Positions 931-64,000 of a stretch of 64,000 nucleotides of DNA are shown in pieces. Each line of letters opens with the position of its first letter. The first letter of the stretch is position 1. Below the pieces are notes generated by a model. It searched no databases, was not told where the DNA came from, and saw nothing but the letters and a program-made list of their open reading frames with translations. The DNA is from Branchipolynoe longqiensis (Eukaryota > Annelida > Polychaeta > Phyllodocida > Polynoidae): positions 146,507,810-146,571,809 of the forward strand of contig CM059186.1 in the NCBI GenBank assembly GCA_030323885.1. The letters run 5' to 3'. The translations under genes were made by a program, and so were the position numbers.

Positions 931-1743
931 GATGAGATAATATATATAGTGATTCTGATTTCTTCTTGTGTTTGTACTTGCTATTTTTCTTCCCCCCCCC
1001 CTCCCTCCTTCCCCTTCTTGTTCATCTTTTAATGAAAAAGAGGCCAAGATTTTCTTTATGAAAATTAAATCAATCAATAAATACTTTAGGCGCCCCAACC
1101 CCAAATCTAGACCAATATCCCAAGTTGGAAAACCTTACGGCATCGCACCCCGTAATTAACGCAGATCAAGTACCACCGGGAGTAAGGCAGAGTGTGTGTG
1201 TGTGTGTGCGTTTATGTGTGTATGTGTGGGTGGGTGGTAGCTTAGTGGGTGAGTGGGGAGGGGGGGGGGGGTAATAGCACTAAATGTGGCACAAACAAGA
1301 TAAAGCACTGCTGCCGTACAGCGCCGCCCTATTAGAAGCCCTACCGGCGATGGATCCCGGCTTACGGCGCAGACTTCACCCCCCCACCCCCCACCGGGGC
1401 CTGCAGCGCGCTAAATGCCCGCAGCTCCCCCTAACGGAGCCCGCCTGCACAACAGCCGAGATACTGCCATATACTGACTACGTAATCGACTGCTATAGGG
1501 TCTGCTGTTGTCACCTACTGCTGCGACTGTAATATCATATATGTATAATTAAAGATATATAGCAATATGACATTACATATATATCCATAGAGATATGGAT
1601 AGTGATAAGACTGTTATCGCGTGTAATAATATCTGTAGTGTCCTGCTCCTACGCGCCCCCCCTTCCTGGTTGGGGTGGGGGGAGGGGTACCGGCATGCTT
1701 CACTCCGCACCCCCCCCCCCCCCCCCCATGTTCGGGGATTTCG
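931..1743. other. No gene seen; poly-C, GT and GC-rich patches
   Basis: The stretch contains a C/T-rich run near 990-1015, a GT and poly-G run at 1186-1272, a GC-rich stretch at 1310-1480 and a poly-C run near 1713-1728. An 82-residue frame at 1284-1532 has no recognisable domain and I do not call it. Confidence 0.5.
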
Positions 1744-2420
1744 CATCATATAGCAATAAATCGAAGACGGTACTATTTGGTACCAGGTTAACCAGTAACA
1801 ATAAAATAAAGTGTCTCCTGGGAAACAGCGAACTAGTGCAGGTAGACAGCTACCGATATCTGGGAGTGGACCTCGACAGGCACCTAAATTATGACCTTTG
1901 CATAACAAACACTATCAAAAAAGCAAACCCCAAAATATGGCTAAAGGCAAAACTGAGATACTACTTGACTGAGAACATGGCAATTGAAATATATAAAGGC
2001 ATGATCCTCCCCTACTTCGACTATGGTGATGTGGTATACATGGGAGGAAATACCAAACTACTAAACAAGCTACAGGTACTGCAAAATAAAGCCCTTAAAA
2101 TATGTCTCCAAGTACACAAAAGATATCCTACAATACACAACAAATGCAATGCAACACTATTAACAAGTAGAGGGGAAACACACCTGAAAATACTAGCACA
2201 CCACGAAACCACGAAACCAGGTTACCCAGTAACCCCCTGCAGGGACACTAGGCACATGGCGGCCCTAATACTACTAACAGAAATGAGTAACACACAAATC
2301 GATGAGAGAAGTGTACTGGCCATGGCAGCACATGCCTGGAATAAACAAAACACAAAACAATGGGCAATCCGAAATCTTGACCACTACAAAAAATTCCTAA
2401 AGAAAACAACTACTTACTGA
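1744..2420 (+). pseudogene. Non-LTR retrotransposon reverse transcriptase, C-terminal fragment (CR1/Jockey-like)
   Basis: About 225 residues are open to a stop at 2418-2420. The visible landmarks are the SKTVLFG segment, YRYLGVDLD (the YLG motif after the catalytic core), then PYFDYGDVVY and LLNKLQVLQNKALKIC. These are the thumb and post-RT features of CR1/Jockey/I-group LINE proteins. The catalytic FADD/YADD box and everything upstream are missing. The upstream open frame (from 1602) is poly-C and low-complexity, so homology starts near 1744. This is a 5'-truncated copy, as LINEs usually leave. The RT assignment is firm; the clade is not. Confidence 0.75.
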
Positions 2421-2731
2421 TTCAGCAAAATCACACCTGCCCCTGAGCACAGTTGCTGCTTGCTGTGTACCGGCACAAAAAGCAAAAGAAAGGCCAGAGA
2501 AAATGGTAAGTATTAAAAATAGGACAATTAGCCCTCCTAAGTACAAATCAGGAAAGCTATCACCACATGGCACAGTCCACCTGGGTATGTGTAATGGCAC
2601 AAACCAACACAGAAATGGACAGGCCATGGTCATGCATCTGATCCACCCTGAAATACAAAATGGCTAAGCAAACAACACAACCATCCCACCTGGTCGCAGT
2701 CCTAAAGAGTCTGAGTGGGTTCTGGCACACT
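2421..2731 (+). other. Probable 3' flank or 3' UTR of the LINE fragment
   Basis: The sequence is A-rich and non-coding in all frames, and runs from the LINE stop codon to the microsatellite-tailed repeat at 2732. No poly(A) tail or target-site duplication was recognised, so the LINE end is uncertain. Confidence 0.35.
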
Positions 2732-2908
2732 CATCATCATCATCATGCTGTCGGTCGCGATGCGACAAAGACTGCTTTCATTACTTGACTGCCGCTCTCC
2801 ATTTAGCTCACACCGGCAAGAACATGTCCAGACAGGTGCAAAACTATTTGTCCCTGCAGTGGCTGGTCGGGAGATGTTGGGAGTTCCATACATCAATCGC
2901 CCTTAATG
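2732..2908 (-). repeat. SINE-like repeat with LINE-derived 3' tail, 3' half (split by the YR element)
   Basis: On the minus strand this is the 3' part of the repeat seen whole at 58763-59221 and 63262-63714. A (CAT)n tail lies at 2732-2746, followed by GCTGTCGGTCGCGATGCGAC. About 125 bp present in the whole copies is deleted after CATTTAGCTC. The repeat resumes at 7374 beyond the YR element. CACACT at 2726-2731 and at 7529-7534 is a candidate target-site duplication. Confidence 0.85.
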
Positions 2909-3124
2909 GGGTTAAATGACCAAGGAGTTGGTCATTTGCTGTCATTGCTGGGGGCGGGGAGGGAGCCGGGTAGCTGACACCTCCTCCTCGCACACTCATA
3001 TGTCTGACAGGGGGCTCGCCCACTCTCAGCAAATCAGAGGGACGCCCATTCTTCCTCGGCCGTGCCGATACACTACCGCCTCACTCTTCTACTGACACCC
3101 GTCAGCTGCACATCTCTTCGAAAA
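2909..3124 (+). repeat. A1: left split direct repeat of the YR element
   Basis: 216 bp starting GGGTTAAATGACC directly after the TAATG core and ending at CTTCGAAAA, 11 bp before the ORF1 start. It matches A2 (6632-6848) except for about five substitutions and one indel confined to 3031-3052. It probably carries the promoter and leader for ORF1. The CCAAT motif seen in A2 reads CAAAT here (3030-3034). Confidence 0.9.
2914..2937. promoter_or_regulatory. Perfect 10-bp hairpin beside the TAATG core
   Basis: AAATGACCAA and TTGGTCATTT form a perfect inverted repeat around a GGAG loop, five bases inside the element end. An identical hairpin occurs at 6637-6660 in A2. Inverted repeats flanking a short core are typical recombinase-binding sites, so this may be one arm of the recombination site. 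That role is inferred. Confidence 0.6.
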
Positions 3125-3135
3125 CAACCATCGAG

Positions 3136-4467
3136 ATGCCTAGGCACGCTAACACATCATCGAAAAAGAGAACCCGGGGACGGCCAGCGGCACCGGCACG
3201 CTCGTCCGGAGCCTCGGCCACCCTCCCCATACAACGGGGCAACAGCCGGGAGATCACGAGCAGCACCCCCAGGCTTAATGCATCCTCGGCAGGGGACTCC
3301 CATGGGGAGCCCAACAACATAATCGACAGCGGATCGGAGACCGACCTATACTATCCGAGGCCAGCCCAACCGCCACAGACGCCAACCGACGACCACATCA
3401 AGACCAAGATGGCAGCCATGGAGCAACAGATGGCCACCGTCCAGGCCACCCTCAGCCAGTTGCTGATACAGACTGCCCCGAGGGAGACGGCCCCCACAGC
3501 GCCTCCACCCAAGCACGCACCGGCCCACCACAGACAACGAGAAGCGACACGCCAGCGCTCGCCCTCACCCCCACCGCTTCCTCCCCCCAGGACGACCCGG
3601 AGGAGGGCCATATCAACATCGGAGGACGAGGCGGCCGAGCCCAAGGCGCGCCCGCGCCGGCAGGACGCACCATGCAACTGCGGGAAAAACACCCCCTACA
3701 CGGCGCCCTCGGCGGACCCATCACCGCACAGGAACGCGAGACAAACCCATCACAAGCACCACCAGGAGCAGACTGAGACCCTCGACGACGAGATGGACCG
3801 CAGGAGGGCCCTCTACCGCCGCATGGAAGGTAGGAAGGCTATACTCCATGATATGTTCATCAAGAACCCGATAGCAAAACCATTTATGTATCTAGACAGG
3901 CATAACTGCGTCTCCCTAGCCCAAAAAATCGCTGCTAGGCACACCATGATGGAGAGGGAATATATAGCCGCATATCTCACAATGCTCGATGATAAGGAGG
4001 TCTATGACCCTAATGATTTTGAGGCCATGCTCGACCACCTGCGGATAATCGCGGAGGACACGATAATCAGCCCGTGGCACGCGATCAGGGCATGGAGCCA
4101 GAAAGTATTCGACAAAATAGAGAAGAACAAACTATCATGGGCGAACGAGCAGGGACTCCACAACGAGAGGGCAAGGTTCGGATTCAGCAACAATGATCAC
4201 AATACCACAAACACAAGGGATGAGCGAGCCTCTACACAGTATGTCGATAATAAGAATGGCAGGGCACGGCTGGAGGCCGAGCCGCACGAGAGGCCGTGCC
4301 AGCTGTATAACTCAGGCAAGAGGTGCGCCCAGCCACAGCACCACCATGATGGCCCAAATGACGTGGTGCACGCATGCGCATATTGCTTTCGCACCACACA
4401 ATCATACTATGAACACACCGAAGAACAATGTAGGAAAAAGAACAGGGCCAATGTGCCAACAAACTAA
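3136..4467 (+). CDS. ORF1, gag-like nucleic-acid-binding protein of the YR element
   Basis: 443 residues, intact. The ATG at 3136 is the first in frame after A1. Residues 1-220 are basic, Pro/Ala/Thr-rich and low-complexity, as in many retroelement ORF1 proteins. Residues about 221-360 form a non-repetitive, mixed-charge segment with an aromatic-rich patch (FMYLDRHNCVSLAQKI) and are probably folded. Near the C-terminus Cys388, Cys397, Cys414, Cys417, His427 and Cys432 make a zinc-finger-like cluster; the surrounding text (PCQLYNSGKRC, then VHACAYCF) resembles finger regions I recall in DIRS/Ngaro-type ORF1 proteins. The likely role is binding element RNA or DNA. It is followed by a proline-rich spacer and the recombinase. 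The link to the element rests on position and this cluster; no fold is recognised. Confidence 0.72.
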   Translation: MPRHANTSSKKRTRGRPAAPARSSGASATLPIQRGNSREITSSTPRLNASSAGDSHGEPNNIIDSGSETDLYYPRPAQPPQTPTDDHIKTKMAAMEQQMATVQATLSQLLIQTAPRETAPTAPPPKHAPAHHRQREATRQRSPSPPPLPPPRTTRRRAISTSEDEAAEPKARPRRQDAPCNCGKNTPYTAPSADPSPHRNARQTHHKHHQEQTETLDDEMDRRRALYRRMEGRKAILHDMFIKNPIAKPFMYLDRHNCVSLAQKIAARHTMMEREYIAAYLTMLDDKEVYDPNDFEAMLDHLRIIAEDTIISPWHAIRAWSQKVFDKIEKNKLSWANEQGLHNERARFGFSNNDHNTTNTRDERASTQYVDNKNGRARLEAEPHERPCQLYNSGKRCAQPQHHHDGPNDVVHACAYCFRTTQSYYEHTEEQCRKKNRANVPTN

Positions 4468-5125
4468 GAAGGGGGGCCGGACCGCCGAAACAGCACATAC
4501 GAAAAAGCGATCACGCCCACGCCCCCCTCAGACACGCGACAACTTTATTACAAAACCCAACCAAAAAGCCCATCAAACTCCAGCCGGCAGACAAAACCGG
4601 CTCCAAACAAGACCACCACCCACAATCCAAGATGGCACTCGCTCTCATCACACCTCAGGGGCTCGCCCGAGACGACGGCTCGGTACACACGGGGAAACAA
4701 AGCCAACCCCCCCACACACAACACGCCACAGGCAGTAACAACAATGCAGAAGTCGCAAGCGACACCCCCCCGCATGGCACCTCCAGCTCACATAGGAGGA
4801 TCACAAGCAGGCTATACAAGCATGAGCGGACACACACCACAAACCCCCAACACAAGCACCCACACCCACCACCACGCGGTGCACAAAACAGACAATGGAG
4901 ATAAACATGACAGAAGCCCCGGCACCAGCAGCGATGGCCAAGCCACCGCCCAACCCGGAACAGCTCAAATCACACACAGGGGCCTGCCCACTCTCGACTG
5001 CCACAAAGCCCCCCCAACTTCAAGAGCCCCCGTGAACAGACAGTCGGCCCGGCCCATCAGACGCCATCGACTTTAACAAAACCGCCTAATACCTGTCCAG
5101 CCTTGCCTCCTAGCATATAGACAAC
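4468..5125 (+). other. Spacer between ORF1 and recombinase where RT-RNase H would be expected
   Basis: The spacer is rich in CCA and ACA codons and low in complexity. It has overlapping open frames, the longest being 4744-5076 (110 residues, Pro/His/Thr-rich). None shows reverse transcriptase or RNase H motifs. It may be scar sequence from an internal deletion or an unconstrained linker. I do not call a gene here. Confidence 0.55.
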
Positions 5126-6101
5126 ATGACTGTCTTATCTCCTCCAGATCCGACATGCGCACGACTGAGGGCAGCGGCGGAGACGAGGCAGACACAGGCC
5201 CGGGCACCGGGCACATGGGCCAACCAACGGGTAGCGGTGAGAGCATACAGACAACACTGCAACACGTTCGGGGTCAAAGATGGAGCCCACCCCACACGAG
5301 ATCCGATGCTGGATAGAAGACGTGGCGGCCCGACAGTGCCCATCATCCGTGGCCAACACAGTAGCACACATTCGCATGCACTTCCGCCTCAACAGAGCCC
5401 CCCTCGACCCATTCGACGACATCAGGGTCAGACTGGCCATGGATGCACTGAAGAGATCGAAGGACCACAAGCCGAGATCCACCCCCTACGCACCGATCAA
5501 CACAATAAAGGCCGTGGTGAACAAGTTGCAGGACAACCAGACACACAGGGTGGCGGCATTCGCCATCCTAGTAATGTACTATGCAGGAGTGAGGCAGTCG
5601 GAGGTGGCACCCAGAGCAGCAAACGCATTTGACCACACACGCCATACGACAAGAGACGACGTGAGGATGGCAGTGCCCAACCTCGAGATACGACAGAAAT
5701 GGGCAAAGAACCTCCAAGGCAATGCCCAGTCGAGGACACTCATAATGGCCCCAGCACCCAACCCGATACTATGTCCAGTCACAGCGTACACACGCATGAT
5801 AAGGGACGACCCCACACGACGGCACAACCAGCCGCTCCTGGTGTACCCAAAAGACGGACACACCATGACGATACCATACATAGCCAGAGTATGGAAAGAC
5901 ACCCAAGCGGCACTGGGAGTCACCAACCCCACCACCCTGCACGCCATAAGGAGAACAGCGGCCACGGTGGCATACGCATCAGGCAGCACTGAACTAGAAG
6001 TGCAGAGGTTCGGCGGATGGGCCTCGCAGGCCTACCGAACATACATCAGCACAGCAGACTCAAAGAAGGTCAACAAAACCTTAATAACGGCCATGAACTA
6101 A
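5126..6101 (+). pseudogene. Tyrosine recombinase of the YR element, with one frame break
   Basis: The main open frame (273 residues from 5280) carries a complete tyrosine-recombinase catalytic set: Arg105 in YYAGVRQSEVA, a candidate beta-strand Lys at 140 or 143 (QKWAKN), His221 and Arg224 in LHAIRRTAA, Trp247 in FGGWAS (the H/W position), and nucleophile Tyr255 in YRTYIS. The N-terminal SAM-like part, ending near CNTFGV, lies in the frame opening at 5126. The switch between frames around 5262-5282 implies a one-base indel or a programmed shift. Such enzymes integrate the circular cDNA of DIRS/Ngaro/PAT elements by site-specific strand exchange. The catalytic core aligns well with the decayed copy at 24941-25530. 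Whether the break abolishes function is not known. Confidence 0.88.
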
Positions 6102-6125
6102 CAAAACACACACAACTTGGCCTTG

Positions 6126-6631
6126 GCACTGTCTCGATAAAAAATGAACAATAACGAGACAAAAAATTAAACCAAAAAATGATTATTACTCAAAAAACTT
6201 ATAACTCTTAACATATGATGAGATGAGTATATCTGCAATTAGGAGCTAATAACACATTAGATAACGCACTCCGAGCATATCAATACTCCATCACTACTCA
6301 GATATGGAATGATCAAACGAATCTCCAATTGACTGACAATTAACCCTCACCACACAATATGAGGTAATCATCAAAAAACTCCTGTTTGACTTATCTCACT
6401 ACTGTATTGAATTGTATTTGAATTCTCCGTTCATAAAAACCAATGTACATATGTTGATGATCGATTTACCATTGTGACATAACTTCATGCTCATGTCAGA
6501 CATTGCCGGCGGGCGACCGCAACCGTGTGTAACCATAAGCCGAAAGACCTGTTGACGACGATTGACCTAAGAATAAAGATATGTTATTCCCACTCATGCT
6601 TCCGTGTTCCTCCCTGCCCGAGCCAGTAATG
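6126..6631 (+). repeat. B1: inner copy of the B split repeat
   Basis: 506 bp starting GCACTGTCTCG, 25 bases after the recombinase stop, and ending CGAGCCAGTAATG. It is AT-rich and non-coding. Near its start TGTCTCG (6130-6136) and CGAGACA (6155-6161) form a 7-bp stem that could act in transcript termination or processing. It is about 99% identical to B2 by eye. Confidence 0.9.
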
Positions 6632-6848
6632 GGGTTAAATGACCAAGGAGTTGGTCATTTGCTGTCATTGCTGGGGGCGGGGAGGGAGCCGGGTAGCTGA
6701 CACCTCCTCCTCGCACACTCATATGTCTGACAGGGGGCTCGCCCACTCTCAGCCAATCAGAGGCCCTGCCCACTCTTCCTCGGCCGTGCCGATACACTAC
6801 CGCCTCACTCTTCTACTGACACCCGTCAGCTGCACATCTCTTCGAAAA
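6632..6848 (+). repeat. A2: inner copy of the A split repeat
   Basis: 217 bp that directly abut B1 at the TAATG junction (6627-6631). It repeats the hairpin seen in A1 (6637-6660) and ends at TTCGAAAA, then runs through a short CCCA-rich linker (6849-6867) to B2. The B1/A2 boundary is identical in sequence to the outer ends brought together, as expected if replication passes through a circular or terminally redundant form. Confidence 0.9.
6751..6760 (+). promoter_or_regulatory. CCAAT-box-like motif in A2
   Basis: AGCCAATCAG matches the consensus bound by NF-Y. In A1 the same place reads AGCAAATCAG, which breaks the CCAAT core. If A drives element transcription, A2 keeps a motif that the copy ahead of ORF1 has lost. 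This is inferred from sequence alone. Confidence 0.35.
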
Positions 6849-6867
6849 ACCCACCCACCCACTGCCT

Positions 6868-7373
6868 GCACTGTCTCGATAAAAAATGAACAATAACGAG
6901 ACAAAAATTAAACCAAAAAATGATTATTACTCAAAAAACTTATAACTCTTAACATATGATGAGATGAGTATATCTGCAATTAGGAGCTAATAACACATTA
7001 GATAACGCACTCCGAGCATATCAATACTCCATCACTACTCAGATATGGAATGATCAAAGCGAATCTCCAATTGACTGACAATTAACCCTCACCACACGAT
7101 ATGAGGTAATCATAAAAAAACTCCTGTTTGACTTATCTCACTACTGTATTGAATTGTATTTGAATTCTCCGTTCATAAAAACCAATGTACATATGTTGAT
7201 GATCGATTTACCATTGTGACATAACTTCATGCTCATGTCAGACATTGCCGGCGGGCGACCGCAACCGCGTGTAACCATAAGCCGAAAGACCTGTTGACGA
7301 CGATTGACCTAAGAATAAAGATATGTTATTCCCACTCATGCTTCCGTGTTCCTCCCTGCCCGAGCCAGTAATG
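6868..7373 (+). repeat. B2: right terminal copy of the B split repeat
   Basis: 506 bp ending CAGTAATG at 7373, after which the interrupted target repeat resumes with CTGCCA. Compared with B1 it has one A fewer near 6905, one extra G near 7060 and about three substitutions. It carries the same stem-loop near its start. Confidence 0.9.
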
Positions 7374-9297: not shown

Positions 9298-9506
9298 CTG
9301 AAAATTGATACTTGCCGCTTACTAGCCAGGCGCTCGGCATTGTTAGGATATGAGAAGGACTAGCTGGCTCAGTGTCAGGATAATGTGACTGAGTGGTCTC
9401 CCAGCGGAGCACAACTATAAAGTCTGTCACAAGTCGGTACCCTACCCGTCCTGATATGATCTTAGATGTTGCCAGGACGTAAAACTCCAACAACCAACCA
9501 ACCCTC
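9298..9506 (+). repeat. tRNA-derived SINE (family 1), 5'-truncated body
   Basis: It begins in AAATTGATACTTGCCGCTTA and ends GCCAGGACGTAAAACTCCAAC. The landmarks CCAGGCGCTCGGCATT, GTGTCAGGATAATGTGACTG and CAAGTCGGTACC are shared with the full copies at 23310-23601, 48333-48656 and 60622-60939. The tRNA-like head is missing. Confidence 0.8.
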
Positions 9507-23309: not shown

Positions 23310-23601
23310 ACGGGATGGCCGAATGAGTTAGAGCGTCCGTCTCCCGTGCTGATAGATCGTGGGGTGGCGGGTTCGAACCCTGGTCGAGTAAAACCAATGA
23401 ATTTAAAATTTATACTTGTCACTTCCTAGCCAGGCGCTCGGCATTATTATGACAGGGCAAGGACTGGTGTGCTCAGTGTCAGGATAATGTGACTGAGTGG
23501 GATAGCACTAGAAAGTCACCATGAGTGCGCACTGTCACAAGTCGGTACCCGTCCTGGTATGACATTAGATGTTCCTAGGACGTAAAACAACAACAAACAA
23601 A
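23310..23601 (+). repeat. tRNA-derived SINE (family 1), full length
   Basis: The head has an A-box-like TGGCCGAATGAGTTAGAGCG and a B box GGTTCGAACCC (23370-23380), as in RNA polymerase III promoters. The body continues with TTATACTTGTCACTTCCTAG, CAGTGTCAGGATAATGTGAC, TCACAAGTCGGTACCCGTCC and CTAGGACGTAAAAC. It ends in a CAACAACAAACAAAC tail. The tRNA acceptor arms do not pair, so this is a SINE and not a tRNA gene. Confidence 0.88.
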
Positions 23602-24129: not shown

Positions 24130-24312
24130 GGCCATATATTCTCGGCGTTAAGTGAGTAGGACAGTGAGGAGGCGAGCGGTGGCGCCACCGTCGGAGTTGA
24201 AGCCTGAGCAGTAGATGAGTAGTCCGAGGCTCAACCACCCGATTACTGATAGGTGGGTGTTAGGATAGTATAGAATTCTGGGTTATTATACTCATATAAT
24301 TCTTATACATAC
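24130..24312 (+). repeat. GGCGCC-core interspersed repeat abutting the YR fragment
   Basis: GCGGTGGCGCCACCGTC and the border TATACTCATATAATTC followed by TTATACAT are present. The YR-element fragment begins right after it, at about 24313. Confidence 0.55.
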
Positions 24313-25530
24313 TGGACCCAGTTCTATGGCACACGCGAAATATTCGCAAGCATCGGATTGCCCGAGGCAACTGAGAAAACCCAGCGCCTAGCTAGGTCCA
24401 TCAGGTGGCTCGGCATATATATTGATGCACCAACAATGACACTCACCATCCCACGCGACGAGATTGAAAGTACCATTAAGCTGGTCCGCACCACTGCAGA
24501 TCGGGATCATGTCACCCAAAAGCAGCCCCAGTCGCTGCTGGGCAAGCTCCTACATCTAGCAAAGTGTATGCCACCAACCAGGCTGTTTGTCAGCAGGCTG
24601 CTGGCTGCCCTCCGTGGTATGGACACTGACCGCACCCCCGTGACCAACGAGATAAGGAGGGACCTCGCATGGTTCCCCTGCATGGAACGGTACATCTATC
24701 ATACCGCCCATCAAACCCATGGGCGAGATAGCTGTCGATGCATGCATTGGCGGAGTGGGCGGGGCCGACAGAAAATGTGCATACTCCACCCAGCTTGCAG
24801 ACCATGGCCTACACCAATTGAGATATGGTGTTGGATAGAGGAGCAGACGACCCGGATGTACCCATCCTCCGTCGCCAACTCAGCCTCTCACCTGCGCCTG
24901 TTCCTATGCATGAGTAAAAAAACACAAGTAAAAAAAAGCGGTGGCCAGGCACCTGCAGGCCACACCGCAGGGACGGGTGGTCGCGACGGCCGTCATAATA
25001 ATGTTCCTTACCGGGACACGGCAGTCGGAGGTGGCGTCATGGTCGGCTGGCACCTTTGACCCAACCCGCCACACGACACAGGCGGATGTGGAAATATGGG
25101 GAGGCAGGCTGCATATACATTCGAAGTGGGCTAAGAATATGCAGGCTGGACACCAGTCGCGGGACAGGTGGCTGGCCCCATCCATGGACGCGCAATTCTT
25201 CCCAGTGACCGCATACCATGCCATGATCGCTGAGGCGCCCACCACCACTTGTGAACAGCCCCTCCTCACATTTCCATCCCCTACCTAGCTAGGGAGTGGC
25301 GCGACACTCAAATCGCCATCGGGGTCTCCCCTCCATACACACTCCACGCAATACGCAAGTCAGCAGCAATGGTGGGCCTTGCCTCAGGCAGCTACAAGCT
25401 GGAGGTCCAAAGGTTCGGGGGATGGGCATCAAATGCTCACCAGATATACATCAGTACCAGAGACTCCAATAAGGTTAACCACGCGCTAATCCATGCGACA
25501 AAATCAAACGAACGCAACTATGGATTGGCT
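24313..25530 (+). pseudogene. Decayed DIRS/Ngaro-type retroelement: RT thumb, RNase H stub and tyrosine recombinase
   Basis: From about 24313 the frame holds the post-catalytic RT region: RSIRWLGIYIDAPTMTLTIP (the LGI-D motif), then LLGKLLHLAKCMPPTRLFVSRLL. Near 24722 the frame shifts into a short RNase-H-like start (IAVDACIGGVGGA), which ends abruptly. At about 24808 sequence related to the recombinase N-terminus follows (PTPIEIWCWIEE; compare PTPHEIRCWIED in the element at 2904-7373), so most of RNase H is deleted. The recombinase core continues in another frame (24941-25288, with TGTRQSEVAS and KWAKNM) and a third (to about 25530, with LHAIRKSAA, FGGWAS and YIS). Catalytic Arg, His-x-x-Arg, Trp and Tyr positions can all be located. 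Frameshifts make it inactive. It shows the RT-then-YR order expected of an autonomous relative. Confidence 0.85.
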
Positions 25531-38736: not shown

Positions 38737-38853
38737 GACTGACTAACATCACGTGTGTAACACCGGCTCTCGTCCAATCACGGCAGTTAAGCCCCTTTAA
38801 GCCTGGCCAGTACTTGGGTGTGTGACCACCTGAGAACAGCAGGTGCCATAGAC
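38737..38853 (+). repeat. 5S-rRNA-like sequence (pseudogene or 5S-derived SINE head)
   Basis: ACACCGGCTCTCGTCCAATC, AGTTAAGC, GCCTGGCCAGTACTTGGGTG, GTGACCACCTGAGAACA and CAGGTGCCATAGAC follow the whole order of animal 5S rRNA at about 117 bp. Several conserved bases differ from the consensus I remember, so a functional gene is unlikely. The following 60 bp are unrelated to 5S; 5S-headed (SINE3-type) elements are one explanation. Only one copy is seen. Confidence 0.8.
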
Positions 38854-38911
38854 ATCGTCCAACAGGCTTACCTACTTCAGTAGTGGATAAGGCATACAAT
38901 ATGGAACAATA

Positions 38912-43915: not shown

Positions 43916-44984
43916 GCCAAGAACCAGCCAAGGTAGCGACATGCATTAATTTGTGTAAGGCTTTTACGTTTGTGCAAGGCTTTGACCCGGCCGGGACTCG
44001 AACCTACCGATTTCCACACTGGAATATGGTGCTGTCCTCATTTCTCCATCTATTCCTGTTGTTTACCATGAACTGTCTCTTTTCTAAACAACTTCGATGT
44101 GGGCCTTATTTATTTATTTATTTATTTATTTACTTCAGTCCTTTAAATGTCCGTGTGCTATATTGGTCAGTAAAGCATGCTCTTGCTGCCTTTCCCAAAA
44201 GCTGCCTACTAATAATAACCAGCGCCGTCACTATGAGTAGGAAATCGATCCAGTAAATTCGCCAGCTGCCACCCTTCCACCCATCCACACACTACCGTGT
44301 TCATTGTCAGATCGTGTTCGCTTCTTCCCCCCCCCCCCCCCCACCCCCCGCACTTCGCTTTTCTTATTTTCATTTTAAATTCCCTTTTCCCTTTTCACCT
44401 TTTTTTTTTATATGGATGGACATCATCCTACATTACCAACGATACTTAGTTCCCTATCTCCTGCTCACTACACTTCAGATTCGAAAAGAAAGGTTTAAGC
44501 AGCGTAAACGAAAATAACAGAAGAAGAAAAATTTTAAGATTTAAAAGAAAGAAAAATAGTGCAAACAGTTCAAAATAAAACCAGGGCCTCTCGTTTAACA
44601 TCTCACTGAAGCACTAATTGAAGCATGGCGGTTTCTGTCTTCTTGTTTCATAATTTGTTGTTGTCGGTTTTCACATGGATGCAGCGTTACAAGCTTAATA
44701 CGGTGGAGTTCTGTGACCCACTTCTTAACACTGGTCCCCCTCCTTTAATCCAATGGCATTCAAGTAGCTTTGAGAAGGGGAGAGGGTGGGTTGGGGTGGG
44801 TTGTTTCGGATTAAACTCAATACCGACTGCTTCAACGGCGAGGAAGACATTGTTTCCTACTTTAATTCAGGCGCGGATAATTTAGCAAACAGGCGTTTAA
44901 GATGTAACGAGCCAACGGTGTTAAACATTAGGGAGAAGTTAGAGGGATGTAATCTACAGGTTTTAACACGCATTCTTCACATCA
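43916..44984. other. Unassigned; second tRNA-like B box, TTTA run and poly-C
   Basis: GGGACTCGAACC near 43993 is an isolated B-box-like word. (TTTA)n lies at 44108-44132 and poly-C at 44327-44348. Short frames lack domains. Confidence 0.45.
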
Positions 44985-46220
44985 ATATTCAGTGTATATT
45001 AAAGTTGCATTTTTTACCTGAATATTCCCTATATATTAAAGTTGTATTCTTTAGATGAATATTCAGTGTATATTAAAGTTGCATTCTTCACATGAATATT
45101 CGGTGTATATTAAAGTTGCATTCTTTACGTGAATATTCTGTGTATATTAAAGTTGCATTCTTTACCTGAATATTCAGTGTATATTAAAGTTGTATTCTTT
45201 ACATGAATATTCGGTGTATATTAAAGTTGCATTCTTTACCTGAATATTCGGTATATATTAAAGTTGTATTCTTTACATGAATATTCAGTGTATATTAAAG
45301 TTGCATTCTTCACATGAATATTCAGTGTATATTAAGGTTGCATTCTTTACCTGAATATTCGGTGTATATTAAAGTTGCATTCTTCACATGAATATTCACT
45401 GTATATTAAAGTTGCATTCTTCACATCAATATTCGGTGTATATTAAAGTTGCATTCTTTACATGAATATTCGGTGTATATTAAAGTTGCATTCTTTACCT
45501 GAATATTCGGTGTATATTAAAGTTGCATTCTTTACATGAATATTCGGTGTATATTAAAGTTGCATTCTTCACATGAATATTCACTGTATATTAAAGTTGC
45601 ATTCTTCACATCAATATTTGGTGTATATTAAAGTTGCATTCTTCACATGAATATTCAGTGTATATTAAAGTTGCATTCTTCACATGAATATTCAGTGTAT
45701 ATTAAAGTTGCATTCTTTACATGAATATTCGGTGTATATTAAAGTTGCATTCTTCACATGAATATTCGGTGTATATTAAAGTTGCATTCTTTCACATGAA
45801 TATTCAGTGTATATTAAAGTTGCATTCTTCACATGAATATTCAGTGTATATTAAAGTTGCATTCTTCACATGAATATTCAGTGTATATTAAAGTTGCATT
45901 CTTCACATGAATATTCGGTGTATATTAAAGTTGCATTCTTCACATGAATATTCAGTGTATATTAAGGTTGCATTCTTTACCTGAATATTCGGTGTATATT
46001 AAAGTTGCATTCTTCACATCAATATTCACTGTATATTAAAGTTGTATTCTTCACATCATTAACCGGTGTATATTAAAGTTGCATTCTTCACATCAATATT
46101 TGGTGTATATTAAAGTTGCATTCTTTACCTGAATATTCGGTGTATATTAAAGTTGCATTCTTCACATGAATATTCAGTGTATATTAAAGTTGCATTCTTT
46201 ACATGAATATTCGGTGTATG
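44985..46220. repeat. 37-bp minisatellite built from the MITE terminus, about 33 copies
   Basis: The unit is close to GTGTATATTAAAGTTGCATT followed by CTTCACATGAATATTCA. The variants TTTACCTGAATATTCGG and CACATCAATATT mix along the array. The word TTAAAGTTGCAT in each unit equals the left terminus of the TTAA-flanked MITE, and the array runs straight into such a MITE at 46221. Confidence 0.95.
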
Positions 46221-46535
46221 TTAAAGTTGGCTAGTCCGATGATTTTGAGTTTCTGTCATTTTTCAGAGATAAATATATTAAGCTGATTGTCATAATCTAC
46301 TTTACTTTCGCTTGAAGTAACTTTTATCTTAAATGGCTACCTTTTGAGATATTTAAAGTTCAAACATTTCAAATTAATTTTGATAAGCTCGCCAAAACTC
46401 TATTAGTAATAGGTTCTATTAATTTGACTTAAGCATTCATTTCTATGTCGCAAAACATGCTTAATAAGTACATCAGTATCTAAGTCAGATATGTAGAATC
46501 AAATCTAGATAATTATTTGAACTATTCAGCTTTAA
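46221..46535 (+). repeat. TTAA-flanked MITE, full copy at the array edge
   Basis: TTAAAGTTGGCTAGTCCGAT at the left, AACTATTCAGCTTTAA at the right, and the reference order between (TTTGAGTTTCTGTCATTTTT, AAGTAACTTTTATCTTAAAT, CTCGCCAAAACTCTA). Confidence 0.85.
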
Positions 46536-48332: not shown

Positions 48333-48656
48333 GGTTGTTGGAGTTTTACGTCCTGGCAACATCTACGGTCATATCAGGCCGGGCACCGACTTGTGACAGT
48401 GTGCACTTATGGCAATTTGATATTGCTGCCCCAAAGGGGAGACCAGGCCACCAGCACCATGACCTGATATCCCACCCAGTCACATTATCCTGACACTCAG
48501 CCAACCAATCCTTGCCCAATCCTAATAATGTCGAGCGCCTGGCTAGTAAGCGACAAGTATCAATTTTGTAAGTCATCGCTTTGACTCGACTGGGAATCGA
48601 ACTCCCGATCTTCCGCACGGGAAGCCTGCGCTCTACCGATTGAGCCACCGCGCTCG
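48333..48656 (-). repeat. tRNA-derived SINE (family 1), full length
   Basis: On the minus strand the head holds GTGGCTCAATCGGTAGAGCG (A box) and GGGAGTTCGATTCCCAG (B box). The body follows through ACAAAATTGATACTTGTCGC, the GAGTGTCAGGATAATGTGAC segment and TCACAAGTCGGTGCCCGG, ending CAGGACGTAAAACTCCAAC. This is the cleanest tRNA-like head of the family here. It is not a tRNA gene because the acceptor stem does not close. Confidence 0.88.
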
Positions 48657-56695: not shown

Positions 56696-57214
56696 ATAGG
56701 TCAGGTATGTCCGGTACCATATTAGACTCTGAGAAACCCATGGTTATTAGTAGTAGTTCTGTGACATCACATAGGGAAAGGGAGGGTGGACTTAGTATTT
56801 AGGCTGTAAGGCGTATTTAAAAACCTTCAAATTTACTTTAAGTGATAATAGGGTTTGCACTTCCCAATATTTGATATTCCCTAGCCTACATGACTAAGGA
56901 CATTCAGTAGGGCTGAATGAGTAGGCTTTGCACTACTTTGCAAGTAAATAATATGCCCAAAGCTTGTATAAATACATGACCCTAATAGTCACGGCTTGAC
57001 TACAGAGAACCCTAGCCCTACATACCTGTCATATAATAGATTGTTTCGGGCTATGTAAATTATGCCTAGACATATTTTATGATAATAATTGTGAACAAGT
57101 AAGGTTGTGTTGATCGCGTCACAGGCCCTTTAAACGTTCGTTGATATCAAGATTATCCAGGGAGATACGCCTTTTGCGCGAGATACTCTAGTACAGTGCA
57201 GTTCTTGAGCAGAA
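56696..57214. other. Unassigned
   Basis: Possibly a decayed relative of the GTTACTGCCCCTTTA repeat at 57000-57130. No gene. Confidence 0.4.
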
Positions 57215-57326
57215 GCCATAACACATTAGTAGCTACTACAAATAAATAAAGGTTTTTTCAGTTAAATGTTCCCCTCCACTAGGATACATTGGCTTCGCTG
57301 ATTTAGCTGATATAGATCTATATAAT

Positions 57327-57364
<38 letters not shown>

Positions 57365-57471
57365 TACAGTAAAACCTCTCTAAATCAACCGACCACGGGA
57401 CCGACTTTAAATGTAGCCCTCTACTCCCATACATTGTCTTCGCTGCTTTAGCTGATATAGATCTATATATA
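57215..57471. repeat. Left part of the unit, with a duplicated MITE left end
   Basis: GATTTAGCTGATATAGATC at 57299 and GCTTTAGCTGATATAGATC at 57444 show a local tandem duplication. It carried 54 bases of the MITE left end (57367-57420) with its flank. Confidence 0.75.
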
Positions 57472-57641
57472 CAGTAAAATCTCTCTAAATCGACCGACCA
57501 TGGGACCGACTTTAAATGGGAGTTTTTCATTTCGCTATGTACAATGGTACTTGCCTGGACGATCGTTTGGGACCCAAATAAGGCGATTGATATAGGGAAT
57601 TGGTCGAACTGTGGAGGTGATCGGTTAGAGAGGTTTTACTG
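57472..57641. repeat. pogo/Tigger-like MITE, 170 bp
   Basis: CAGTAAAATCTCTCTAAATC and GGTTAGAGAGGTTTTACTG are inverted ends flanked by TA. It is related to 11115-11290. Inside lies GGGACCGACTTTAAATGG. Confidence 0.8.
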
Positions 57642-58529
57642 TATATATATGAATCTTCTCCGTTGCTGTCTCCTACTAATGAGCATGCGAGCATCAACAT
57701 TCCATATCTCCAAACTGACAGCTGGGCTCCTTTCTAATTATGAGCGCCTGAAGTGATGGAAGTTGGGAAAAAATGTAGCTATCTGGCCACTGCTCTCTAT
57801 ATGGCCTTCAGTCAGTCAGATGAAAATTTCTACTAATTACACGCTGTAGTCCAAGTAGCATACCATCACCAGACTCGCTAAATAGAGAGGAAATATAAAA
57901 TGGACTTGCATAGTGTCCTTTTATATCATTAAATGGCATGTGTCTACATCGGTCCGTAATGGATTTTCAAACATGATGGTGTGTATGAATTATGATTCAA
58001 AATAAACAAAAGGAATCTCAAGCTAATACAAAGAAATCTCGAACTGATAAATTTAGCATAAATTGTAGGTGAATCTCTAATAAAGGTAGGTCACATAGGG
58101 TTCTTTTACTATGAGTTGTATTTAATTTATCATCGGTTCCAACGAAAACAGCCATTAACATTGATATTGCACTTAGAGACCATTACAGCTGGTAACAGTT
58201 CCAGAGAAAGAGATCTACGAGAAAAATCTATTGAACTGAAATTGATAATCATTCGGTTAGAAATGAAAATCTGAAGTCAGAAAATAAGCCTCATCCAGTG
58301 ACAACCTGCTTATTTCAGCCCATTTCTACAAGAGTAGCTATGTGTGGCAAGGTCCAGCCCCCAGGTGGCACTGCTGGAGGGCTATTAATTAATGCTGTCA
58401 ATCCAGGATGATCCCATCACCTATACTCATCAGTGATATTCCACGGATGAGTATTCCGTAGGAGAATTTGTGACAGTTCCAAGGTCTTGTCACAGTCAGT
58501 CCAAAGCAGCAGGAGTCGATCATATTCAG
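57642..58529. other. Unassigned unique-looking part of the duplicated unit
   Basis: Present in both copies (second at 62127-63020). No coding frame: the open frames in the two copies are short and differ by substitutions and indels without a coding pattern. Confidence 0.5.
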
Positions 58530-58762
58530 AGTCCTATCTCCTTCATCCATGGTATTGGTACCGTAATCTATGGTGGCGATGTCTCCATGGATATTAGTAC
58601 GGTAGTCTAATGTATCTCCATGGAAATGTAACCAACTCTGTTGTAGCCTTATTTCCATGGGAATGGTACAGTAGTTTATTGTAGCCCCATCTCCAAGGAA
58701 ATGGTACCACAGTCTATTTATTGTAGCCTTATCTCCATGGAAATGGTACCGTAGTATAATGT
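58530..58762. repeat. 38-bp CCATGG minisatellite, left part
   Basis: Units near TATCTCCATGGAAATGGTAC alternate with GTAGTCTATTGTAGCC. The array is interrupted at 58763 by the SINE-like repeat, with AGTATAATGT (58753-58762) as the duplicated target. Confidence 0.85.
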
Positions 58763-59221
58763 CATCATCATCATCATCATCATCATCATGCTGTCGGTCG
58801 CGATGCGACAAAGACTGCTTTCATTACTTGACTGCCGCTCTCCATTTAGCTCTCTGCTGTGAGAGTTGCGGTTTGTGCGGTTGTACATTTCATGAAAGCT
58901 GCCTGCAAAAGTGTTGAAGTGCTGCTGGCTTTTGCAAGTTACCAGCGGCACTCTCTCGGGGAGCAAATAGAGGTTTCACACCGGCAAGAACATGTCAAGA
59001 CAGGCGCAAAACTATTTGTCCCTGCAGTGGCTGGTCGGGAGATGTTGGGAGTTCCATACATCAACCACCCTTAATGCTGCCACAGTGATATGGTTTTCTG
59101 CTTAGGGTTTGCTCCCTTAGCCTTCGGTTCTGTCAAGGACCTGTACCACAAGGCAGTGGTTTAGAACTCTGCAAGGCAGGGGCGTCAAACTCCCTGAGGT
59201 ATTGCTATACCTGCATACCCA
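58763..59221 (-). repeat. SINE-like repeat with LINE-derived tail, intact copy with 10-bp TSD
   Basis: 459 bp between AGTATAATGT at 58753-58762 and at 59222-59231. On the minus strand it starts TTGGGTATGCAGGTATAGC and ends in (ATG)n. The last 100 bases match the end of the RTE-like LINE at 15757-16905, including its final codons and stop. No clear tRNA A and B boxes were found in the head, so it may be a SINE or an internally deleted LINE. It is an empty version of the site occupied by the YR element at 2904-7373 (TAATG at 59072-59076). Confidence 0.85.
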
Positions 59222-59231
59222 AGTATAATGT

Positions 59232-59985
59232 AAGTTGTAACCATATAGCCATGGACACGGTGCGATAGTCTATCATTGCACTATTTCCATGAAAATGAAA
59301 CCACAGTCTATTGTAGCTTTATCTCCATAGGAATGGTACCATAAGCTACCTCCAAGGAAATGGTAACATAGTCTATTATATACCTATCTACATGGAAATG
59401 GTACCATATTCTACAGAAACACTATTTCCATGGAAATAGTACCGTCGTCTATTGTAGTCCTACCTCCATAGAAATGGAACGATAGTCTATTGTAGTCCTA
59501 TCTCCATGGAAATCGAATGATAGACTACTGCAGCGCTATCTCCGTGGAAATGGAAAGATAGTCTACTGCAGCCTTATCTCCATGGAAATGGAATGATAGT
59601 CTACTGCAGCCTTATCTGCATGGAAATGGAATGATAGTCTACTGCAGCCATATCTCCATGGAAATGGAACAATAGTCACCTGCAGCCTTATCTCATGGAA
59701 ATGGAATGATAGTGTACTGCAGCCCTATCTCCATGGAAATGGAATGATAGTCTCCTGCAGTGCTATCTCCATGGAGATGGAATGATAGTCTACGGCAGTG
59801 CTATCTCCATGGAACTGGAACGATAGTCTCCTGCAGTGGTATCTCCATGGAGATGGAACGATAGTCGGCAGCAGCCCTATCTCCATGGAAATGGAATGAA
59901 AACCTACTGCAGCCCTATGTCCATGGAAATGGCGCAGTAGTCTATTATACCTCCATTTCCATCTCCATACTGACATATTCAACTG
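59232..59985. repeat. 38-bp CCATGG minisatellite, right part, about 18-20 units
   Basis: The unit is close to TCTACTGCAGCCTTATCTCC followed by ATGGAAATGGAATGATAG. Each carries the palindrome CCATGG, and many a CTGCAG palindrome. The 89-residue minus-strand frame is a read-through of the repeat. Confidence 0.9.
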
Positions 59986-60621: not shown

Positions 60622-60939
60622 GAACATGGTGGCCGAATCGGTTAGACTGGCTGGCTTCCCATTCAGGAAGTGGTGGTTTCAATCTCCGACTGACTAAAAA
60701 CAATGGCTTATAAAATTGATACTTGTCGCTACCTATCCTGCCACTCAATATTAATATGATAGGGAAAGGACTGGTTTGCTCAGTATCTGGATACTATCAC
60801 TGAGTGGGATATCCGGTCATTGTGCTAGCACTTTGGTTTCCCAGTGAGGCAGCACTATAATGCTGGCATGGATGTGCACTATCACAAGTCGATACTCATC
60901 CTGGCATGGCCTTAGAAGTTGCTAGTAAACAAACAAAGC
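60622..60939 (+). repeat. tRNA-derived SINE (family 1), full length
   Basis: Head GGTGGCCGAATCGGTTAGAC with a decayed B box (GGTTTCAATCTCC). The body runs from AAAATTGATACTTGTCGCTA through ACTGAGTGGGATATCCGGTC to CTGGCATGGCCTTAGAAGTT, with a TAAACAAACAAAGC tail. Confidence 0.85.
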
Positions 60940-61640: not shown

Positions 61641-61956
61641 ATCCTCCGGCGTGACTCACACTGGTCTACATCCGGTGGAGTCCTGGAGGAGAAGGTGGAG
61701 CCATAACACATTAGTAGCTACTACAAATAAATAAAGGTTTTTTCAGTTAAATGTTCCCCTCCACTAGGATACATTGGCTTCGCTGATTTAGCTGATATAG
61801 ATCTATATAATTATGTCTATATATATATATATAAATATATATATATATAGAGTAAAACCTCTCTAAATCAACCGACCACGGGACCGACTTTAAATGTAGC
61901 CCTGTACTCCCATACATTGTCTTCGCTGATTTAGCTGATATAGATCTATATATATA

Positions 61957-62126
61957 CAGTAAAACCTCTCTAAATCGACCGACCATGGGACCGACTTTAA
62001 ATGGGAGTTTTTCATTTCGCTATGTACAATGGTATTTGTCTGGGCGATCGTTTGGGACCCAAATAAGGCGATTGATATAGGGAATTGGTCGATCTGTGGA
62101 GGTGATCGGTTAGAGAGGTTTTACTG
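61957..62126. repeat. pogo/Tigger-like MITE, second-copy counterpart
   Basis: 170 bp, equal in length to 57472-57641. A preceding partial left end near 61848 reads AGAGTAAAACC instead of CAGTAAAACC. Confidence 0.8.
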
Positions 62127-63021
62127 TATATATATGAATCTTCTCCGTTGCTCTCTCCTACTAATGAGCATGCGAGCATCAAGATTCCATATCTCCAAAC
62201 TGACAGCTGGGCTCCTTTCTAATTATGAGCGCCTGAGGTGATGGAAGTTGGGAAAAAATGTAGCTATCTGGCCACTGCTCTCTATATGGCCTTCAGTCAG
62301 TCAGATGAAAATTTCTACTAATTACACGCTGTAGTCCAAGTAGCATACCATCACCAGACTCGCTAAATAGAGAGGAAATATAAAATGGACTTGCATAGTG
62401 TCCTTTTATATCATTAAATGGCATGTGTCTACATCGGTGCGTAATGGATTTTAAAGCATGATGGTGTGTATGAATTATGATTCAAAATAAACAAAAGGAA
62501 TCTCAAGCTAATACAAAGAAATCTCGAATTGATAATTTTAGCATAAATTGTAGGTGAATCTCTAATAAAGGTAGGTCACATAGGGTTCTTTTACTATGAG
62601 TTGTATTTAATGTATCATCGGTTCCAACGAAAACAGCCATTAAACAGCCATATTGCACTTAAAGACCATTACAGCTGGTAACAGTTCCAGAGAAAGGAAT
62701 CTACGAGACAAATCTATTGAACTGAAATTGATAATCATTCGGTTAGAAATGTTTAGAAATGAAAATCTGAAGTGTTTCACTAGGAAGCCTCATCCAGTGA
62801 CAACCTGCTTATTGCAGCCCATTTCTACAGGAGTAGCTATGTGTGGCAAGGTCCAGCCCCCAGGTGGCACTGCTGGAGGGCTATTAATTAATGCTGTCAA
62901 TCCAGGATGATCCTATCACCTATACTCATCAGTGATATTCCACGGATGAGTATTCCGTTGGAGAATTTGTGACAGTTCCAAGGTCTTGTCACAGTCAGTC
63001 CAAAGCAGCAGGAGTCGATCA

Positions 63022-63261
63022 TATTCAGAGTCCTATCTCCTTCATCCATGGTATTGGTACCGTAATCTATGGTGGCGATGTCTCCATGGATATTAGTACG
63101 GTAGTCTAATGTATCTCCATGGAAATGTAACCAACTCTGTTGTAGCCTTATTTCCATGGGAATGGTACAGTAGTTTATTGTAGCCCCATCTCCAAGGAAA
63201 TGGTACCACAGTCTATTTATTGTAGCCTTATCTCCATGGAAATGGTACCGTAGTATAATGT
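63022..63261. repeat. 38-bp CCATGG minisatellite, left part, second copy
   Basis: Colinear with 58530-58762. The target duplication AGTATAATGT is at 63252-63261. Confidence 0.85.
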
Positions 63262-63714
63262 CATCATCATCATCATCATCATGCTGTCGGTCGCGATGCG
63301 ACAAAGACTGCTTTCATTACTTGACTGCCGCTCTCCATTTAGCTCTCTGCTGTGAGAGTTGCGGTTTGTGCGGTTGTACATTTCATGAAAGCTGCCTGCA
63401 AAAGTGTTGAAGTGCTGCTGGCTTTTGCAAGTTACCAGCGGCACTCTCTCGAGGAGCAAATAGAGGTTTCACACCGGCAAGAACATGTCAAGACAGGCGC
63501 AAAACTATTTGTCCCTGCAGTGGCTGGTCGGGAGATGTTGGGAGTTCCATACATCAACCGCCCTTAATGCTGCCACAGTGACATGGTTTTCTGCTTAGGG
63601 TTTGCTCCCTTAGCCTTCGGTTCTGTCAAGGACCTGTACCACAAGGCAGTGGTTTAGAACTCTGCAAGGCAGGGGCGTCAAACTCCCTGAGGTATTGCTA
63701 TACCTGCATACCCA
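63262..63714 (-). repeat. SINE-like repeat with LINE-derived tail, second copy
   Basis: It matches 58763-59221 apart from a shorter CAT tail and a few substitutions. AGTATAATGT recurs at 63715-63724. The unoccupied YR target core TAATG is at 63565-63569. Confidence 0.85.
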
Positions 63715-63724
63715 AGTATAATGT

Positions 63725-64000
63725 AAGTTGTAACCATATAGCCATGGACACGGTGCGATAGTCTATCATTGCACTATTTCCATGAAAATGAAACCACAGT
63801 CTTTTGTAGCTTTATCTCCATAGGAATGGTACGTTAAGCTACCTCCAAGGAAATGGTAGCATAGTCTATTGTATACCTATCTACATGGAAATGGTACCAT
63901 ATTCTACAGAAACACTATTTCCATGGAAATAGTACCGTAGTCTATTGTAGTCATATCTCCATAGAAATGGAACGATATTCTATTGTAGTCCTATCTCCAT
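63725..64000. repeat. 38-bp CCATGG minisatellite, right part, truncated by the window
   Basis: Colinear with the start of 59232-59985. Confidence 0.85.

Follow-up and report, generated by a model that had tools for sequence, protein, structure and literature searches.

Structure of the element

We analysed a 64,000-nucleotide stretch of the genome of the polychaete Branchipolynoe longqiensis (assembly GCA_030323885.1, contig CM059186.1, positions 146,507,810 to 146,571,809), which is called below the window. Its positions 2904–7373 are occupied by an element with split direct repeats, a gag-like open reading frame (ORF) and an ORF for a tyrosine recombinase (YR), arranged as A1-gag-YR-B1-A2-B2, i.e. 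with all parts of the layout A1-ORFs-B1-A2-B2 present. The two A repeats (A1, 2904–3124; A2, 6627–6848) are 97.7% identical over 222 columns, and the two B repeats (B1, 6126–6631; B2, 6868–7373) are 99.0% identical over 507 columns. The 5-mer TAATG, of which the whole window has 87, begins exactly at 2904, 6627 and 7369, that is at the left, internal and right junctions, and CAGTAATGGGG occurs in the window once, at 6624. Taken as a whole, this feature is probably an integrated and now crippled copy of a Ngaro-type YR retrotransposon, placed by structural features alone, which would enter the chromosome by exchange of a single strand.

The initial annotation had described a split-direct-repeat YR retroelement with this order of parts, with TAATG at three junctions and with a single TAATG in the host repeat devoid of insertion, and all this was reproduced here. 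Its epithet “nearly pristine” suits the repeats and not the coding part, from which reverse transcriptase (RT) was lost by deletion and in which the recombinase frame is broken.

One-sided constancy of the core

Sister copies were searched in the same 1.85-Gb assembly and 40 of 440 candidates were scored; copy counts given here are therefore lower bounds, and all core counts include the window copy. Sequences were obtained for 19 further A1 copies, 16 A-only matches and six more recombinase-side places, including full A1-ORFs-B1-A2-B2 elements, single units A1-ORFs-B and solo A-B units. One of the 40 matches, C1:86065279, lacks an A start and was set aside, and another four are either the two belonging to the window or A2 repeats of elements counted already. 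No right end was obtained from L020, L022, L024, L029 and L041, and the right ends of L018 and L038 lie on other loci. L035 is without a left end, L053 and L056 are without a B match, the right ends of L021, L025, L026 and L027 were set by extending the B match by 2–7 letters, and L018 and L020 deviate in the first letter of A.

TAATG was registered at all 33 right ends (29 of 29 and 4 of 4) and at all nine internal B1/A2 joints (seven, one and one). At the left end it is present in four of 35 copies (the window copy, L014, L021 and L041), and 23 different left 5-mers were found overall. Both ends could be read in one locus for 28 copies: in 25 of them the left 5-mer is not TAATG, the right one being TAATG every time, and in three the two 5-mers are equal, always as TAATG. 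Two further copies, each read from two loci (L018 with L035 and L038 with L058), agree, so that 27 of 27 informative copies are one-sided. The interpretation in the initial annotation is supported in part: the absence of a classical target duplication and the probable role of TAATG as a circle-junction core, both suggested there, are upheld, and so is its use of the internal TAATG, the key clue, against plain target duplication.

Left 5-mers are variable and still resemble the core. On average they match TAATG in 3.17 of 5 letters versus 1.41 expected from the same flanks (sd 0.17; z 10.5), and none of 100,000 random draws of flank 5-mers exceeded a mean of 2.2 matches. Among all 1024 5-mers TAATG ranks second as the left-end match, after TAATT. 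Information content at left positions −5 to −1 is 0.26, 0.73, 1.06, 0.79 and 0.44 bits, with not more than 0.26 bits at any of 30 other positions. Positions −4 to −1 are conspicuous, with a preference for the middle letters AAT and the middle A present in 30 of 35 copies; position −5 does not rise above the strongest other position, T being nevertheless in excess there (18/35, p 0.007). Since poorly matching left 5-mers also occur (CACAC, TCGAT, ACCAC), the target preference is loose. The supposed need for an identical 5-base core does not hold: by the test offered with it, namely insertions into sites without a matching core, its strict version fails, and a looser one, asking for resemblance, survives.

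Because right and internal joints are constant, the left one varies and uninserted paralogues of several copies hold the left 5-mer, or one resembling it, once, TAATG is, judging by the sequences, a core which the element brings along and which recombines with a host 5-mer resembling it, and in the window copy the host 5-mer matched it by chance. Such one-sidedness is unlike unbiased two-strand exchange: either one strand alone was exchanged or repair was strictly directed.

Uninserted target sites

Paralogues of the target lacking the element are found in the window itself, where at 59068 and 63561 they read CCCTTAATGCTGCCA. Flanks of the element, when joined, align with both of them over 245 columns with 94–95% identity and no gap at the joint. 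These two paralogues sit in a duplicated host stretch (57214–59507 and 61699–64000, 96.8% identity, about 4.5 kb apart) and are therefore not independent. Two more uninserted relatives of the target were found elsewhere, one reading TAATG (L020; 246 columns, 94.3%) and the other TGATG (L013; 189 columns, 94.2%).

For sister copies two paralogue comparisons were made. From the first, L009 and L026 were excluded as simple repeats and L017 because it matched itself alone; the second was made without the window copy, L014, L025, L026 and L009. In the satellite array into which L025 inserted, CAATG stands at the site in 36 of 39 alignments, and L025 itself carries CAATG on the left and TAATG on the right. 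A paralogue of the L039 target also has CAATG (83.6%, 73 columns, gap-free joint). For L036 the paralogue reads TGATG versus its own TGATT (87%, 78 columns, gap-free joint), and two paralogues of L012, gap-free at the joint, read TAATT and TCATT versus its own ACATT. Most paralogues of L031 are gap-free, with other 5-mers; those of L030 are gapped, and those of L013 (68–72%) are too distant for clean reading. Since the left 5-mer or its close variant is present once in uninserted paralogues, nothing was duplicated or lost, and an insertion, where it could be read, adds one TAATG together with the element.

At window position 2808, about 125 bp that are present in both window paralogues are missing from the host repeat surrounding the element. 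The target of L014 is a dispersed repeat with window copies at 9322–9498, 23425–23600, 48333–48546 and 60732–60920, three of which have TAATG and the fourth TACTA.

Hairpin at the internal junction

An offset inverted repeat is present between the end of B and the interior of A, and the internal joint (6609–6685) folds into one long hairpin. As RNA it has −68.4 kcal/mol (z −5.2, 0 of 200 shuffles) and as single-stranded DNA −30 (z −3.8, 0 of 200), and it ranks first among 145 windows along the element. The fold of the opposite strand is less pronounced (z −2.6, 1 of 200). Taken by itself, the B end has no fold (z 0.9) and the A1 start has one (z −3.5), and the junction of L025 has z −4.0. All five letters of the core pair with letters inside A, and in the DNA fold the stem stops exactly between TAATG and GGG; a 3-nt bulge is present on one arm only.

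The hairpin was compared among 25 distinct real or joined junctions, derived from 36 rows; in the joined row of L015 several pairs are broken because some letters are missing from its left A1. The majority of pairs are kept, with A36-T83 replaced by G-C in three junctions and A57-T62 by C-G in seven, and one-sided subfamily changes at pairs 26-90, 38-81 and 54-65 remain G-T compatible. In eight real joints 98.3% of cells pair versus 33–61% for slid partners, and the covariation score is above all 500 shuffles. Between the window copy and L025 the hairpin stretch is 85–90% identical per 40 columns, with 58–75% before it and 42–70% after it; other parts of B reach 80–88% too.

A second short inverted repeat lies near the start of B (window 6130–6161, TGTCTCG ... 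CGAGACA) and falls within those windows of the element that come next after the junction hairpin in degree of structure.

Coding content and loss of reverse transcriptase

The gag-like ORF has two relatives (56% identity over 53% of the query) and no match in Pfam; the name, which we assume for this 443-aa frame, leans on its position and on an end which we take to be zinc-finger-like. The recombinase ORF (5280–6101) matches Phage_integrase with E 9e-6 and 26 bits, slightly below the Pfam cut-off of 27.1. Thirteen relatives were found with E not above 0.001 (best 73%), in which R105, K143, H221, W247 and Y255 are invariant and R224 nearly so; these six we take to be catalytic-type residues of a tyrosine recombinase. 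The family profile matches Cre in PDB (best E 2e-4). No relatives of the recombinase were found in viral or bacterial collections, and no junction pattern in viral contigs. The recombinase frame of the window copy is broken, and L010 and L025, the two sisters translated, read the N-terminal homology in one frame.

Between gag and recombinase homology the window copy has about 700 bp, too little for RT, and its frames there gave no Pfam match. Sisters match window 4868–5081 and 5073–5320 with about 1.7 kb in between (six of seven compared; L011 on the left side only), the left-hand match ending at about 5078–5081. RVT_1 scores above its cut-off in pol frames covering the missing stretch in all three sisters scanned (L011, L012, L025), and RVT_3 (RNase H-like) is present in L025 below its cut-off. 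Of the 29 genome matches of a query spanning the deletion joint, one continues across it, the window copy itself, and the others match one side. RT loss is thus confined to the window copy as far as the joint search reaches, and a mobile family lacking RT is not supported, though this search may have missed copies of greater divergence. Most simply, the deletion arose after the insertion or in the founding complementary DNA (cDNA).

In L025, L026 and L027 the pol frame remains open through the entire recombinase gene, which is read in a different frame; long overlaps of this kind have been described for DIRS1-like elements.

Table 1. Coordinates of the element, its parts and the uninserted target sites in the window
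Feature	Position	Strand	Basis
Left 5-mer TAATG, putatively the host's own target 5-mer	2904..2908	+	once at the same place in uninserted paralogues; variable in sisters
A1 repeat, begins GGGTTAAATGACC	2909..3124	+	97.7% identical to A2
Inner hairpin of A (AAATGACCAA-GGAG-TTGGTCATTT)	2914..2937	+	stable fold; compensatory change in other subfamilies (pair 57-62)
Gag-like ORF, 443 aa	3136..4467	+	named by position and presumed zinc-finger-like end
Joint of deletion removing about 1.7 kb including RT	5073..5081	+	comparison with sisters
Recombinase N-terminal homology, frame differing from the remainder (broken frame)	5165..5287	+	71% to P0001 residues 5-45, frame +2
Tyrosine recombinase ORF, 273 aa	5280..6101	+	Pfam, relatives, conserved residues
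B1 repeat, ends with CCAG	6126..6626	+	repeat alignment
Internal core TAATG at B1/A2 joint, proposed circle-junction template	6627..6631	+	TAATG in 9/9 internal joints
Junction hairpin containing the core; stem stops at TAATG/GGG in DNA fold	6609..6685	+	RNA z −5.2, single-stranded DNA z −3.8
A2 repeat	6632..6848	+	repeat alignment
Short linker, A2 to B2	6849..6867	+	repeat alignment
B2 repeat	6868..7368	+	repeat alignment
Right core TAATG, putatively element-carried	7369..7373	+	TAATG in 33/33 right ends
TAATG in uninserted target paralogue	59072..59076	+	flank alignment
TAATG in the other uninserted paralogue, from the other copy of the duplicated stretch	63565..63569	+	flank alignment

Proposed mechanism and its alternatives

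To our knowledge, the way in which YR retrotransposons bring cDNA into chromosomes is poorly worked out. We consider it probable that an element of Ngaro type integrates here by single-strand exchange. The internal B1/A2 joint would template the junction of the cDNA, as in the published model of DIRS1. The recombinase would then join this junction to the target by exchange of a single strand at the 3′ border of the core (TAATG/GGG to X/right flank), the cDNA junction being probably folded as a long hairpin, and host replication would complete the insertion. For the window copy one has to assume that the host site happened to be TAATG itself. A more specific version, which we put forward tentatively, is that this eukaryotic retrotransposon integrates in the manner of integron cassettes: a folded single-stranded junction would exchange one strand with a loosely matching 5-mer, replication would finish the process and a one-sided core scar would remain.

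Several observations weigh against this interpretation. The majority of copies studied are close relatives. The left 5-mer is exactly that of the host for L025 and L039 only, paralogues of L036, L012 and L031 differ from it, and a second paralogue of L039 has CACTG (73%). The junction of L023 folds less strikingly (z −2.7 as single-stranded DNA, equalled by 2 of 200 shuffles), six of 25 distinct junctions, including one whole subfamily, do not keep the outermost pair 20-96, and covariation amounts to two pairs, the counts of both-side changes and of further pair types being not above shuffles (400 and 499 of 500). The hairpin could instead have a role in reverse transcription or in packaging, or it could be a palindrome of double-stranded DNA. 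The strand bias itself was deduced from insertions that are fixed, and it could equally arise if a heteroduplex core were always repaired in one direction.

Two of these doubts can be developed into alternatives. It is possible, though we doubt it, that the hairpin is an RNA structure used in reverse transcription, for a template jump at B1/A2, and has no role in integration. The strength of the RNA fold and the wobble compatibility of the three one-sided subfamily changes fit this assumption; that the stem ends at the crossover edge, with the core wholly inside and the other arm in A, would then be a coincidence. That a double-stranded circle is recombined in the ordinary way, with both strands exchanged at a 5-bp stagger and repair or replication always keeping the top-strand outcome, seems to us unlikely. 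This alternative relies on the usual chemistry of tyrosine recombinases, accounts for core similarity by the need of the strands to pair and would allow the junction inverted repeat to be a double-stranded binding site. Two-strand exchange with such a stagger leaves mixed duplex at both joints, and opposite outcomes come from the two daughter strands. If there is no bias, the two should therefore be about equally frequent, and all informative copies go one way (sign test 1.5e-8).

Movement at the DNA level is improbable. Cryptons and bacterial integrative elements move as excised and reinserted DNA circles, and here too the recombinase might excise a circle between the ends and reinsert it, reverse transcription mattering little. 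Single-unit and solo A-B copies are what circle exchange would yield, and the window copy has no RT; yet the same forms may come from ordinary recombination between A or B repeats, sisters retain RT frames, and the RT-less form, being seen once, gives no sign of onward movement. The constant core fits templating, yet it would survive top-strand-only excision as well, and so does not by itself exclude this route.

Recombination strictly requiring an identical TAATG in the target, which fits the window copy, L014, L021 and L041, is rejected as very improbable by the other 31 of 35 left 5-mers. A plain 5-bp target-site duplication by a DDE-type integrase, suggested by equal 5-mers on both sides of the window copy, deserves practically no credence and is rejected by the sister copies, in which such equality is limited to TAATG and the right 5-mer is constant, and by the recombinase which the element encodes.

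Relation to known systems

Structural features of YR retroelements are said to be homoplasious (PMC4157794). Elements of the Ngaro superfamily (DIRS order; for example in Cafeteria burkhardae and Xenopus) are described as A1-[ORFs]-B1A2B2 with RT and RNase H, a YR and no methyltransferase (PMC8547959, PMC9210276), and isolated AB repeats are reported for them (PMC8547959). The family analysed here shares with them split direct repeats, the YR with its R, K, HxxR, W and Y (Pfam score just below the cut-off), RT and RNase H in the sisters, and solo A-B units. No methyltransferase match in Pfam was given by the pol frame of L025 (1125 aa), either as a whole or as its last 375 aa, such an absence being weak proof. 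PAT elements combine split direct repeats with a methyltransferase; the repeats are present here and, with the same reservation, no match to the enzyme. Differences are that the passages on Ngaro elements (PMC8547959, PMC9210276) contain neither the one-sided core rule nor the junction hairpin, that the window copy is without RT and that an ORF like the amphibian SGNH one has no room in the 24 bp between the YR stop (6101) and B1 (6126). An element with long terminal repeats and a DDE integrase was rejected, as neither sister copies nor empty sites have a target-site duplication.

In DIRS1-like elements a core at the circle junction recombines with matching host sequence without target duplication (PMC3266345), and AAT, the commonest core in Table 3 of that paper, is the middle of TAATG. 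Those elements differ in having inverted terminal repeats, internal complementary regions and a 3-bp core (PMC3266345); repeats of the element analysed here are direct, and this assignment was rejected. Among the 28 rows of the same table, eight combine unlike ends with a 3-nt junction, and by our own count the start equals the junction in seven and the end in one (two-sided 0.07; two unlike rows with a 2-nt junction were omitted). As a weak lead, the one-sided rule may thus extend to DIRS1-like elements with sides swapped, the element side being on the left.

A parallel to one-sidedness is given by SE elements (strand-biased circularizing integrative elements) of Gammaproteobacteria, which also use a YR and have the host 6-mer at attL and the donor 6-mer at attR (PMC9345347): the host spacer stays at one end and the element-carried spacer arrives at the other. 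Strand bias was shown for their circularization, and the order of exchange at integration is left open by the authors (PMC9345347). Unlike the family described here, they are DNA elements, whose 6-bp spacer originates from the previous donor site and not from an internal template. Integron cassettes are recombined at attC by a tyrosine recombinase acting on the folded bottom strand in one orientation (PMC8876359). They are bacterial and involve no reverse transcription, and folded use of the window junction is putative.

In the available parts of the literature searched, from which subscription papers were mostly absent, no statement of a one-sided core rule for YR retrotransposons was found, nor any link between single-strand or hairpin sites and these elements. 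This signature, in which the right end has the core of the element and the left end a host-like 5-mer similar but not identical to it, is simple enough for scoring in any genome and is of help in separating one-strand from unbiased two-strand exchange. The folded-strand reading, if true, would join eukaryotic retrotransposons to integron-like single-strand recombination.

Other features

A decayed relative of the same element type occupies window positions 24274–25518, with a pol-like stretch, by our own reading, followed by recombinase pieces in several frames; Pfam gave nothing in the pol-like stretch, and no repeats of A or B type are listed around this relic. In the sister copy L018, gag is interrupted (about 1203 to 5766) by a nested insertion some 4.5 kb long, the two halves overlapping by 4 bp. 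Elsewhere in the window, units of about 74 bp form a tandem array at 44970–46229, and a 5S rRNA-like match above the Rfam gathering score (44 bits) lies at 38741–38854.

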